From positions 1 through 64,000 of the forward strand of contig JAPLNR010000064.1 of assembly GCA_026401035.1 (NCBI GenBank): 64,000 nucleotides of DNA, read 5' to 3'. The stretch comes from Planctomycetia bacterium. Lineage in GTDB: Bacteria; Planctomycetota; Planctomycetia; Pirellulales; UBA1268. The number at the start of each line of letters is the position of its first letter. Within the stretch, counting starts at the first letter, position 1. The notes beneath the pieces were generated by a model. The model ran no database searches. It was not told the origin of the DNA and saw only the letters and a list, made by a program, of their open reading frames with translations. Shown piece after piece: positions 43,456-47,869 of this stretch. The position numbers were made by a program, and so were the translations under genes.

Positions 43456-44205
43456 ATGATCCTGGGAAAACTCTGGAAGACGCTTGCCGCGCAGATAAAC
43501 AAGGTCGCCAATTTCTTCTGGACGGCCGATCCGGTCGCGCAACTCCAGTACGAATATGACAAGGCGGTCGACCAGATGAAGGAGGGCCGCGAGGGGCTCG
43601 AGCAATATCGGGCGCTCGTCGAGCGGGTGACGCGGCAGGTGAACGGCGACCGCGAGCACGTGGCCAAGCTCGAGGCCCAGGTGAAGGCCTACCTGCAGAT
43701 CGGCGAACGCGAGACCGCCGCCAAATTCGCCATGGAACTCCAGCGGGCGAAGAGGGAACTGGCCGAGAACGAGGCCCAGCTCAAGCTCCACGAGACGGCC
43801 TACGGCAACAATGTCTCAAAGGTGCAGCACGCGACCAAGAAGCTGGCCGACCTCAAGCACAAGATTCAGAAGTATGATGCCGAATTGAAGCTGAGCCGCG
43901 CTGAGGCCGAACTGGCCAAACTCGCCACTAGTTTCAACTTCGATATCACGACCGACTTCGGCCAGATCGAGGATGTGATCCAGGACAAGATCGGGCTCAA
44001 CCGGGCCAAGGTTCGCGTGGCGGCCGATCTTTCCGGCAACGGTCTCGAGAAGATCAAGACGGAGCAGGCCGTCGAGAAGAACATGGCGGACCAGGCGCTC
44101 CGCGAGTTTGAGATCGAGATGGGCATGGTGACTCCGGAAACGTCCGGCGTGAAGGCCGACGACAAGGAACTCGGATCGGAGCGGTCGAAGCAGAAGGCCA
44201 CCTGA
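43456..44205 (+). CDS. pspA: PspA/IM30 (Vipp1-like) membrane-stress protein
   Basis: 249 aa from the ATG at 43456. Nearly all helical: an amphipathic N-terminal helix (MILGKLWKTLAAQINKVANF), then the long coiled-coil hairpin (residues 30-180, e.g. QLQYEYDKAVDQMKEGREGL, LKHKIQKYDAELKLSRAEAE) and a C-terminal extension with ADDKELGSERS. PspA/Vipp1 proteins belong to the ESCRT-III superfamily and coat membranes under envelope stress. No pspBC or pspF is nearby; instead an AAA+ ATPase gene follows after 31 bases, so the two look like one transcript. Confidence 0.85.
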   Translation: MILGKLWKTLAAQINKVANFFWTADPVAQLQYEYDKAVDQMKEGREGLEQYRALVERVTRQVNGDREHVAKLEAQVKAYLQIGERETAAKFAMELQRAKRELAENEAQLKLHETAYGNNVSKVQHATKKLADLKHKIQKYDAELKLSRAEAELAKLATSFNFDITTDFGQIEDVIQDKIGLNRAKVRVAADLSGNGLEKIKTEQAVEKNMADQALREFEIEMGMVTPETSGVKADDKELGSERSKQKAT

Positions 44206-44236
44206 GACTCCCATCCCTCGCATTCAAGTCGCACCC

Positions 44237-46114
44237 GTGGCAGCTGTTCCTCCCGCATCCGGATCCTCCTCAGCCTCCGCCGAATCCCGGCCGAGTGCCG
44301 GTGAAGCCATTGCGCCGCCATCGCTGGGAACGGCCGCTGCGGCCGCAGACGCCGGCGCGTCGCTGCCGGCGTGGTGCCCCGCTTGGGCCGAGCGGCTGGG
44401 CGACGCCTATCTCTCTGGCACAAGCTGCATGTTCCTGCTGCATGGCAACGTGCGGGATCTCGTGCCGGTGGCCCCTCCGGGGCAGGAAGCGGCGTCTGGC
44501 TGGGGCACCGTGTCTGATTTTCTCGCCCGCGAGATGTTTGGCCGCTGGGACATCGTGCTGGCCTACGACGTCGGCAAGGGGCTGCGGCCGCTGGCGGGGC
44601 CCGATCCCAACCGGCTCCGCGCGATGGCGCAGTGGCTCACGGAGCGGCTGGGCAATGCCGCCAACTGGCCCCGCGATCCCGATGCCGCGATCGCGGCCCT
44701 CGATGCCCTACTCGAGCGAAATCTCCTCGAGCCGCCCGAACAGCGGAAGCGGATCGCCTTGGTGCTCGACTATGCCCAGTATCTCGCGCCCGGCGGCGAC
44801 GGCGGCCGGTCCGGCGCGAGCCGGCTCGTGCGGCTGCTGGGCTGGGCCACCAACCCGCTTCTGCGCCGCGTGAACGTCTCGATCGTGCTGATCACCGACT
44901 CGATGGCGGAGATCCATCCCCGACTCGTCACCAATCCTGCCGTGACCACGATCGACGTGCCGCTCCCCGACGCCGCCGAGCGGGAGCGGTTTGCCCTCGC
45001 GACGGCTACTGCGGCCGGCATGCCCGCCGTCCAGATGGATGCGGTGAAGCGCACCGCGGCGCTCGCGGGGGGCTTGTCGCTCGAGAGCCTGCGGGCCGTG
45101 ATCACGATGTCGGCCCGCGCGGGGACGCCCCCGGACGGCCCGGAATTCGCGATCCAGAAGAAGGACCTCATCGAGCGTTCGTGCCAGGGGCTCATCGAGT
45201 TCATCCAGCCCCGGCTCACGCTCGACGCCGTGGCTGGCCATGCCGAGGCGAAGCACCGGCTCGAAGCCGACGCGCGGGCGATTAGGCGCGGGCAGTTCGA
45301 GAGCGCCCCGATGGGCTACCTGATCTGCGGCCCCGTCGGCACGGGCAAGAGCTTCATCGCCGAGTGCTACGCCGGCAGCGTGGGCATCCCCTGTGCCGTG
45401 CTCAAAAATTTCCGCAGCAAGTATGTCGGCGAGACGGAGGGCAACCTCGAGCACGCCCTCGACGTGCTGCGGAGCCTCGGCCCGGTGGTCGTGATCATCG
45501 ACGAGGCGGATGCGGCCCTCGGCAATCGCCAGTCGGACGGCGACTCGGGCACGTCGGCCCGCGTCTTCTCGATGATCGCCCGGCAGATGGGCGACACCCG
45601 CTACCGGGGCAAGATCGTCTGGATGCTGCTCACGAGCCGCCCCGACCTCCTGCCGATCGACCTCAAGCGGCAGGGCCGCGCCGAGGTGCACATCCCGCTT
45701 TTCTACCCGCACGATCAGGCCGAGATGGAGGCGATGTTCACCGCGATGGCACGCAAATGCCACGTGAAGCTCGCCCCCGGTCTCCCGGGCCCGGTGGATC
45801 TCGAGCTCGGCCTCTCCGGGGCCGACATCGAGAGCGTCGTGCTGGCCGCGCGGCGGAAGGGCCTCGAGCGGGCGGCCGACGCCGGCCAGCCGGCTCCCGA
45901 CACGATTTCGGCCGCGGACCTCAAGGCGGCGCTCGACGACTTCATGCCGTCGGCGCAGGGCCTCGAGAAGGAGATGCAGGAGATCGCAGCGGTGCTCGAA
46001 TGCACCGAGAAGCGGTTTCTGCCCGATCGCTGGAAGGAAAAAGTGAACCAGCCTGGGGGCAGGTCACGCCTCCAGGAACGCCTCGCCGCGATCCGCGAGG
46101 TGGTTTCTTCATGA
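44237..46114 (+). CDS. Two-domain AAA+ ATPase next to pspA
   Basis: 625 aa, GTG start at 44237. The first 45 residues are disordered (Ala/Ser/Pro). Residues about 50-300 look like a degenerate AAA unit: FLLHGNVRDLVP at the Walker A place lacks the GKS/T, and RIALVLDYAQYL is a weak Walker B. The second, active AAA has Walker A GPVGTGKS (365-372), a pore-loop KYVGETEGN (395-403), Walker B VVVIIDEAD (417-425) and a sensor-1 LLTSRPD. This is the type II layout of NSF/VCP or Vps4-related remodellers. Directly downstream of pspA; a small helical protein gene follows after 32 bases. Confidence 0.85.
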   Translation: MAAVPPASGSSSASAESRPSAGEAIAPPSLGTAAAAADAGASLPAWCPAWAERLGDAYLSGTSCMFLLHGNVRDLVPVAPPGQEAASGWGTVSDFLAREMFGRWDIVLAYDVGKGLRPLAGPDPNRLRAMAQWLTERLGNAANWPRDPDAAIAALDALLERNLLEPPEQRKRIALVLDYAQYLAPGGDGGRSGASRLVRLLGWATNPLLRRVNVSIVLITDSMAEIHPRLVTNPAVTTIDVPLPDAAERERFALATATAAGMPAVQMDAVKRTAALAGGLSLESLRAVITMSARAGTPPDGPEFAIQKKDLIERSCQGLIEFIQPRLTLDAVAGHAEAKHRLEADARAIRRGQFESAPMGYLICGPVGTGKSFIAECYAGSVGIPCAVLKNFRSKYVGETEGNLEHALDVLRSLGPVVVIIDEADAALGNRQSDGDSGTSARVFSMIARQMGDTRYRGKIVWMLLTSRPDLLPIDLKRQGRAEVHIPLFYPHDQAEMEAMFTAMARKCHVKLAPGLPGPVDLELGLSGADIESVVLAARRKGLERAADAGQPAPDTISAADLKAALDDFMPSAQGLEKEMQEIAAVLECTEKRFLPDRWKEKVNQPGGRSRLQERLAAIREVVSS

Positions 46115-46146
46115 TCTGATCGAGAACATTTTCAGGAGCATTTCTG

Positions 46147-46452
46147 ATGTCGAAATCCAGTGCCGCAAAGACTCCGTGGTTTGACGCCGCCAGCGACTCG
46201 CCGCTGCTCACCGAATACGCCCGCAAGCTCGACTCCTTTCTCGACGTCGTCGCCGACGGCAAGGTCGACGCCAAGGAACTCGAGGCCCAGGAGCAGCGGG
46301 TGGTGAAGCTCATGAAGGAAGTAGAGCCCCTGCTCTCGCCGGAAGCCCACGAGAAGGTCACGCAGTTGCTCTGCGAGGTGACGGCCTACGACCTGATGAA
46401 CACGTTTCACATGGCCGGCAAGTCGCGGCCGCAGACGAAGTTTCGCGGGTGA
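46147..46452 (+). CDS. Small helical protein in the pspA-AAA cluster
   Basis: 101 aa with an AGGAG eight bases before the ATG at 46147. No signal peptide. Predicted three-helix, charged protein: LLTEYARKLDSFLDVVADGK, AKELEAQEQRVVKLMKEVEPL and AHEKVTQLLCEVTAYDLMNT. I do not recognise the family. Its place as the third gene suggests a partner of PspA or the ATPase, for instance an adaptor; this is inference from order only. Confidence 0.6.
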   Translation: MSKSSAAKTPWFDAASDSPLLTEYARKLDSFLDVVADGKVDAKELEAQEQRVVKLMKEVEPLLSPEAHEKVTQLLCEVTAYDLMNTFHMAGKSRPQTKFRG

Positions 46453-46720: not shown

Positions 46721-47869
46721 CTAGTCGAGCCAGTCCTGCTCCTCGAGACGCTGCGGCGTGTAGACCTCGGTGACGTAGCTGATGTCCTTCGAGATCAGCG
46801 ATTCGACTTCGAGCTTGAAGCCGTTTTTCAGCATCGTCTCGATCTCCTTCTGCCAGCCCTTTTTTCCGGAGAACCACGGGTAGGCGGCGATCTGCTTGGC
46901 CCGCTTGATGTCGGTGTCGTTGAGGGTGATCTGCACGCTCGGATTCAGTTTGCAGCGGTCGTAGTCGCGCGACCGGATGCCGAGAAACCGCGCCTCGGGG
47001 ATCGCCATCCGCTTCGACTCGTAGGCGAGATTGATCGAGCCCTGCTTGAGCACGGAGTAGATGTAGTAGCCCCAGGGATCGTTGTCGAGCAGGCAGTAAA
47101 CGGGGAGTTTGAGTTCGTTGTGGAGCCGGTAGAGCATCCGCCGCACGCCGCGGGGGGGCTGGCCGCCGCCGTGGGTGAGCAGGCAGGAGTGCTTCCGCCA
47201 GAATTTATCCTCGTTGAACCGCCGCCAGACGGTGTCTTTCTCGACGTGGAGGATGAATTTCGCGTCGCACGACTTGAACTTCACGATGTCGGCTTCGACG
47301 ATCGAGGGAATGCTGTAGCCGCCGGAACCCATGCGGGAGCAATCGATCTCGTCGCCCGAGTCGATGAGGGTGATCGGGCCCACCATGCCGCCGCGGTTGC
47401 TGGCATAGACGTGGAGTTCCTCGCGGAGGCTCTCGAGCGTGACCTCAAGGTCCTCGATGATCGGGTCGCACTCCTCCTGAGTGCCGAACGTCTCCTCGCG
47501 GGTGCCCTCGATCGTGTGCTTGAGAAGGTAGTAGAGACCACGGATGCTCGTGGTCTTTTGCTGGTCGATGAGGGCCTTGCAGCCGGTGGCCACGAGCAGC
47601 GTCTGCATGTAGCTCTTCGCCTGCGAGAGGTTGAAGAGTTGGCGACGGTTCGTCTGCCCGCCCATCTCGATGATCTTCCGCGCCTTGTTGAAGCGGACGT
47701 TCGAGAGGCTGCGGGTGGGGATGTCGAGGTGCGGATCGCGGCGCTTCTCGGCGGCGCTGGCCACTTCATCGGCTAGGTCGACGATCAGGCCGAGCGTCTT
47801 GACGTCGACCGGCGGAAGCTTCGATTTCGCCGGGGTAGATTTCTTCGCGCTCTTCGCGGTCGTGGCCAT
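46721..47869 (-). CDS. top6A: DNA topoisomerase VI subunit A (Spo11-like)
   Basis: 382 aa, the size of archaeal Top6A. Catalytic Tyr region TSIRGLYYLLKHT (Tyr113/Tyr114), TOPRIM Glu200 in ILHVEKDTVW and Asp242-Asn-Asp244 in LLDNDPWGYY, plus the THGGGQPPRGVRRML motif of the family. Type IIB topoisomerases cut DNA in both strands and relax supercoils as A2B2 with the GHKL subunit B. No top6B gene is in the window, so the partner, if any, is elsewhere. Topo VI is common in archaea and plants and rare in bacteria. The basic Lys/Ala/Ser-rich N-terminal 20 residues are an added tail. Confidence 0.93.
   Translation of the reverse strand: MATTAKSAKKSTPAKSKLPPVDVKTLGLIVDLADEVASAAEKRRDPHLDIPTRSLSNVRFNKARKIIEMGGQTNRRQLFNLSQAKSYMQTLLVATGCKALIDQQKTTSIRGLYYLLKHTIEGTREETFGTQEECDPIIEDLEVTLESLREELHVYASNRGGMVGPITLIDSGDEIDCSRMGSGGYSIPSIVEADIVKFKSCDAKFILHVEKDTVWRRFNEDKFWRKHSCLLTHGGGQPPRGVRRMLYRLHNELKLPVYCLLDNDPWGYYIYSVLKQGSINLAYESKRMAIPEARFLGIRSRDYDRCKLNPSVQITLNDTDIKRAKQIAAYPWFSGKKGWQKEIETMLKNGFKLEVESLISKDISYVTEVYTPQRLEEQDWLD

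Follow-up and report, generated by a model that had tools for sequence, protein, structure and literature searches.

The window, a stretch of 64,000 nucleotides from contig JAPLNR010000064.1 of a Planctomycetia bacterium, carries three genes in tandem on the forward strand: pspA (43,456–44,205; 249 aa), a gene with a GTG start that encodes a double-AAA ATPase (44,237–46,114; 625 aa), and a gene for a small orphan helical protein of 101 aa, referred to here as SM (46,147–46,452), which is conserved downstream of the AAA gene in most loci. The intervening gaps measure 31 bases (44,206–44,236) and 32 bases (46,115–46,146), and the sequence thus bears out the shared direction and close spacing from which the initial annotation had proposed a bacterial ESCRT-III/Vps4-like unit. 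Just 3' of the module, on the reverse strand (46,721–47,869), lies a gene for a topoisomerase VI subunit A/Spo11-type protein (PF21180, E = 5e-58; PF04406). A pattern scan of the region returned no sigma-70-like promoter, although a null of this kind is weakly informative.

The pspA product scores 50.9 bits against PF04012 (E = 2e-13), over the curated cut-off of 33.9, which makes it a member of the PspA/IM30 family within the ESCRT-III superfamily, and it is the single PspA_IM30 match in the host genome. Searches of that genome with positive controls gave no match for PspB or PspC, in agreement with the earlier remark that these classic partners are absent. PspA orthologues adjoining the AAA gene in relatives show 61–90% identity, and the module-linked PspAs, from both the compact operon of the window and the longer form described below, group together in one PspA clade. 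Members of this clade score poorly against Pfam relative to canonical PspAs, and some genomes carry both kinds. By its sequence, then, the window pspA is part of a divergent PspA/IM30 clade that is tied to the double-AAA ATPase.

Because Foldseek aligns the ATPase over its full length to double-AAA proteins, its N-terminal part can be recognized as an AAA unit by fold; PF00004 matches the second unit alone (aa 362–487, E = 2.5e-21). The AlphaFold2 model, built with 41 relatives, has a pLDDT of 89 and a pTM of 0.83, with residues 1–40 at low confidence, and its nearest folds in the PDB are p97/Cdc48, Rix7, NVL and AFG2, each aligned over both units (about 570–610 columns, E of about 1e-18). At the Walker A position of the first unit, located by an alignment of 41 relatives and by the secondary structure of the model, the family has F-L-L-H-G-N-V-x-D-L (FLLHGNVRDL in the window, forward strand, 44,432–44,461), with a lysine in none of the relatives inspected, and in the alignment the acidic pair DE of Walker B is lost family-wide. 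The second unit keeps its Walker A, GPVGTGKS (forward strand, 45,329–45,352), a Walker B of IDEAD (IIDEAD in the window), RQGR as its RxGR arginine fingers, and an aromatic pore loop with a conserved KYVG (KYVGETEGN in the window); residues G365, G368, G370 and K371 are invariant in the 41 alignment rows. Model and alignment thus agree with the earlier description of a degenerate first unit and an intact second one, and the motifs suggest that the first tier is structural and that the second hydrolyses ATP.

The second unit possesses the full equipment of a Vps4-type cassette, that is, Walker motifs, aromatic pore loop and arginine fingers, and the initial annotation had likened the whole protein to Vps4. 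As a statement of family this does not hold: the CdvC model scores it at 40.5 bits, the cut-off being 650, a Pfam search finds no MIT domain in the ATPase, and there are two AAA units rather than one, the N-terminal part being the degenerate AAA unit. Since it lacks an MIT domain and its nearest folds are of the Cdc48/p97 type, the ATPase is Vps4-like at most in its job. Nor can it be assigned to the CDC48 family, whose model it matches with 58.2 bits against a cut-off of 802.65, its first unit being without a Walker A. Two further groups of relatives were encountered: a second double-AAA family in the host's order (L022–L029; 26–30% identity to the ATPase), whose loci show neither PspA nor SM in the vicinity, and distant relatives (28–34% identity) surrounded by hypothetical genes on large Bacilli plasmids (L210, 5281–6903; L211, 5719–7296), where neither of the two loci examined has an annotated PspA within about 6 kb.

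When one genome per species was scanned, 80 best relatives were obtained, 57 of which have enough flanking DNA for gene order to be read. PspA, ATPase and SM occur in that order at 50 of these 57 loci, the others being PspA-ATPase (3), ATPase-SM (1) and ATPase alone (3). The three-gene order is therefore conserved well beyond chance, and the genes stay together, as had been anticipated, across Planctomycetota and also outside the phylum. Within a sample of 98 genomes of the host's order, a close ATPase orthologue is present in 20, and in nearly all of them, contigs permitting, PspA lies upstream and SM downstream. One locus (L017, 659–1434, genome G008) has two small open reading frames between pspA and the ATPase gene, the second of which is PIN-toxin-like by eye, the two resembling a VapBC pair.

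In Myxococcota (L171), Acidobacteriota (L182, L184), a deltaproteobacterium (L187) and some Planctomycetota (L070) the module takes a longer form, in which about 4–5 kb separate the upstream PspA from the ATPase, after which SM is again found. The space between is taken up by genes for a fusion of binding protein and OmpA, a permease, an ABC ATPase and a protein of about 290 aa that is membrane-bound by appearance and has no Pfam match. The three-gene form of the window looks like this long operon minus its four transport genes. Such an arrangement might mean that the ATPase acts as a chaperone in the assembly or quality control of membrane complexes, its original client being the linked ABC transporter together with the OmpA-fused binding protein, and that PspA is no more than the membrane platform whose tail recruits it; assembly of membrane-linked complexes is also proposed in the passages of Ravi et al. 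2024 (PMC11237479) that deal with these genes. However, the transporter genes are absent from between PspA and the ATPase in most planctomycete relatives and in the window, where PspA, ATPase and SM stay, and the window's genome returned no match for the binding-protein/OmpA gene in a search run without a positive control. We therefore regard the chaperone explanation as unlikely.

The association of PspA with the ATPase extends beyond gene order. A PspA above the Pfam cut-off occurs in all 20 genomes of the order that have a close ATPase orthologue, as opposed to 11 of the 78 that do not. In a phylum-level sample of 294 genomes, the ATPase was found in 34 of the 36 with a module-type PspA, the two genes often lying on different contigs, and in a thirty-fifth such genome (G282) part of the ATPase is encoded at the edge of a contig. 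At least six genomes (G106, G173, G215, G260, G273, G286) keep the pair with no PspA within the stretch around the ATPase. PspA is missing from the vicinity of some relatives of the ATPase, and in one genome (G158) the ATPase and SM are present and no PspA was detected.

The third component follows the other two less strictly. SM occurs in 21 genomes of the order, 18 of which also have the ATPase; the two ATPase genomes that lack it (G097, G037) are both cases in which a contig end cuts the locus, and in two others (G008, G026) it is retained on another contig. Three genomes have SM and no ATPase. In G005, SM comes directly after PspA; in G041 and G088 (L221 and L220, respectively) SM sits beside the topoisomerase VI A gene as it does in the window, with neither PspA nor ATPase, an arrangement suggestive of a deletion that spared SM. 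Because SM follows the PspA/ATPase pair imperfectly, the role of adaptor first given to it is a guess, and we propose for it the broader part of an accessory of the pair.

The model of SM (pLDDT 85, pTM 0.69) has four predicted helices, two short (21–26, 29–37) and two long (42–62, 65–92), rather than the three originally described, and its invariant residues include W11, D37, E44, Q48, L63, H68, T72 and L75. SM matches no family in Pfam or NCBIfam, and neither its fold nor its sequence has a significant counterpart in the PDB (nothing by Foldseek at E <= 0.001). Likeness to MIT, which could have lent substance to an adaptor role, was rejected on the same searches, there being no MIT match in Pfam and no Foldseek match in the PDB at that threshold. 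An affinity with TerB, considered on account of the sequence ADGKVDxxEL, was likewise set aside, since a single one of 36 members matched PF05099, weakly (E = 0.009) and not above the cut-off of that family. At distant ATPase loci without SM, unannotated genes of 200–250 aa adjoin the ATPase (L079, 8662–9273; L087, 2353–3015; L085, 5559–6302), and these are possible functional replacements of SM.

A comparison of C-termini revealed that module PspAs end in a variable tail carrying a short motif, [KR]-x-[LMI]-G. In the window this is KELG (K237-E-L-G240; forward strand, codons at 44,164–44,175), and elsewhere KQLGP, KDLGP, KTIGP, KEMGP, KSMGP and similar forms. The motif lies no more than about 16 residues from the C-terminus in nearly all cases and at the exact C-terminal end in three; in the PspA of L087 it occurs twice. 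Spotted by inspection and then counted, so that its definition is post hoc, it is present in the tails of 119 of the 121 distinct PspAs whose genomes bear the ATPase, including PspAs encoded far from the ATPase gene, a count that leaves out two matches located within the last helix; shuffled tails have it in 4.3% of cases. A divergent pair of ATPase-linked PspAs (L099, L100) is without it. The motif was found neither in canonical planctomycete PspAs nor in the other operon proteins (transporter parts, membrane protein, SM, ATPase).

The motif is missing from all five module-type PspAs whose genomes do not have the ATPase (G005, G019, G047, G056, G199) and present in the PspA of G282, the genome with the partial ATPase gene. 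Fisher's test of motif against ATPase presence gives p = 8e-8, a value that ignores kinship. In a test on the tree there were three concordant independent pairs, no discordant pair and one tie (G282, there scored as without ATPase), too few events for the sign test (p = 0.25). Because PspAs encoded apart from the ATPase also show the motif, it cannot be a constraint on shared DNA. Its persistence across otherwise dissimilar tails and its occurrence in these unlinked pairs argue for its being functional, as does the fact that neither canonical PspAs nor the rest of the operon's proteins carry it. That it serves as a partner site for SM is disfavoured both by G005, where PspA and SM adjoin without motif or ATPase, and by distant families that have motif and ATPase but no detectable SM. 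In the locus of G019 (L212, 4912–9869) two PspA-like genes stand about 4 kb apart with two genes for SPFH/band-7-like membrane proteins (by eye) between them; this genome has no ATPase of the module family, and its module-type PspA is without the tail motif.

Co-occurrence and the common tail motif strengthen the functional link between PspA and the ATPase that the initial annotation had drawn. If, instead, these were envelope-stress genes that are merely co-transcribed and have separate functions, the tail motif being meant for some other partner, then genomes that keep SM without the ATPase, and the one with ATPase and SM but no detected PspA, would be readily accommodated. The co-retention of PspA and ATPase where the two are unlinked would not, and neither would the disappearance of the motif where the ATPase is missing, even in G005 with its SM directly after PspA. 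To our minds this makes the separate-functions account very improbable.

PspA proteins are established as polymerising on membranes. The reading that we favour, with a probability of roughly 0.6, is that the three genes form a compact bacterial ESCRT-III-type module in which the ATPase engages the PspA tail through the motif and remodels PspA polymers. On this model, which draws on the sequence comparisons and on analogy, PspA would polymerise on the membrane, and the ATPase, probably a hexamer like others of its family, would form a Cdc48-like double ring whose first tier is structural and whose second hydrolyses ATP. The ring would engage the flexible PspA C-terminus through [KR]-x-[LMI]-G (KELG here) and thread PspA through the second-tier pore, such that subunits are pulled out of the polymer, which would thereby be remodelled and its subunits reused; SM would act as an accessory to the pair. 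Threading is proposed by analogy: Vps4 extracts ESCRT-III subunits and unfolds them, and the paper that describes this treats the dismantling of PspA rods in cells as an unsettled matter (PMC11746142). Because the operon carries an ABC transporter in several phyla, PspA may not be the sole client.

Tail recruitment would also be compatible with a reversed relationship, in which PspA regulates the ATPase and is not its substrate. There is precedent for this in E. coli, where PspA binds and inhibits the AAA+ protein PspF. The ATPase of the module is, however, no sigma-54 activator, its matches being classical AAA proteins of the Cdc48-like type, and it retains a substrate-threading pore loop; we consider regulation by PspA improbable. 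Returning to the remodelling of PspA by the ATPase, a broader version would have a dedicated Cdc48-type ATPase recycling ESCRT-III in several phyla, reading a KxLG(P) tag on PspA as an independently evolved equivalent of the Vps4-MIM pairing, with SM as the third co-conserved component. This we put forward tentatively, at somewhat less than even odds.

The pairing itself is not new, because Ravi et al. 2024 (PMC11237479) reported, as a genomic prediction, PspA beside a double AAA protein with an inactive N-terminal copy, and the passages concerned propose ATP-dependent, ESCRT-like membrane remodelling. The initial annotation's view that the system is little studied is accordingly overstated as regards its description and stands for experiments, the literature searched having yielded no experimental study of the pairing. 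What appears to be new is the family of SM, the finding that it accompanies the operon in several phyla, and the PspA tail motif; the passages of Ravi et al. 2024 (PMC11237479) on these genes make no mention of SM or of the motif. Recent structural papers (PMC11746142 among them) suggest, by analogy with Vps4, that unspecified chaperones or PspF disassemble PspA and Vipp1. The module offers a concrete candidate for the ATPase that would disassemble these bacterial ESCRT-III proteins, together with a four-residue tail motif that can be mutated and natural control genomes that have lost both motif and ATPase. It would also bear on the claim that systems of ESCRT-III with a recycling ATPase are confined to archaea and eukaryotes.

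Several known systems resemble the module in part. The longer operons, with their ABC ATPase, permease and PBPB-OmpA protein, match neighbourhoods described in those passages of Ravi et al. 2024 (PMC11237479). With the ESCRT-III/Vps4 systems of eukaryotes and archaea, Cdv included, the module shares the combination of an ESCRT-III superfamily polymer with an AAA ATPase, and a short C-terminal motif of the polymer subunit that accompanies that ATPase (MIM there; KxLG here, where it tracks the presence of the ATPase across genomes). Vps4 combines a single AAA unit with an N-terminal MIT domain, whereas the window ATPase carries two AAA units and lacks MIT. Its tandem units and its best whole-chain fold matches ally it with the unfoldases Cdc48/p97, Rix7/NVL and AFG2, whereas, unlike Cdc48/p97, it is without a nucleotide site in the first unit and has no recognizable Cdc48 N domain. 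In the archaeal Halo_adaptin ESCRT loci (PMC10936438), too, an AAA ATPase lacking MIT is preceded by a PspA-like gene, but there the ATPase has a Cdc48-type N domain and the partners are winged-helix and adaptin-like proteins (PMC10936438). Finally, as in the reported disassembly of VIPP1 by chloroplast Hsp70 (Li et al. 2025, as cited in PMC13051332), a chaperone would act on a PspA-family polymer by way of its C-terminal tail, although the tails differ and the part taken there by Hsp70 would here fall to an AAA ring.
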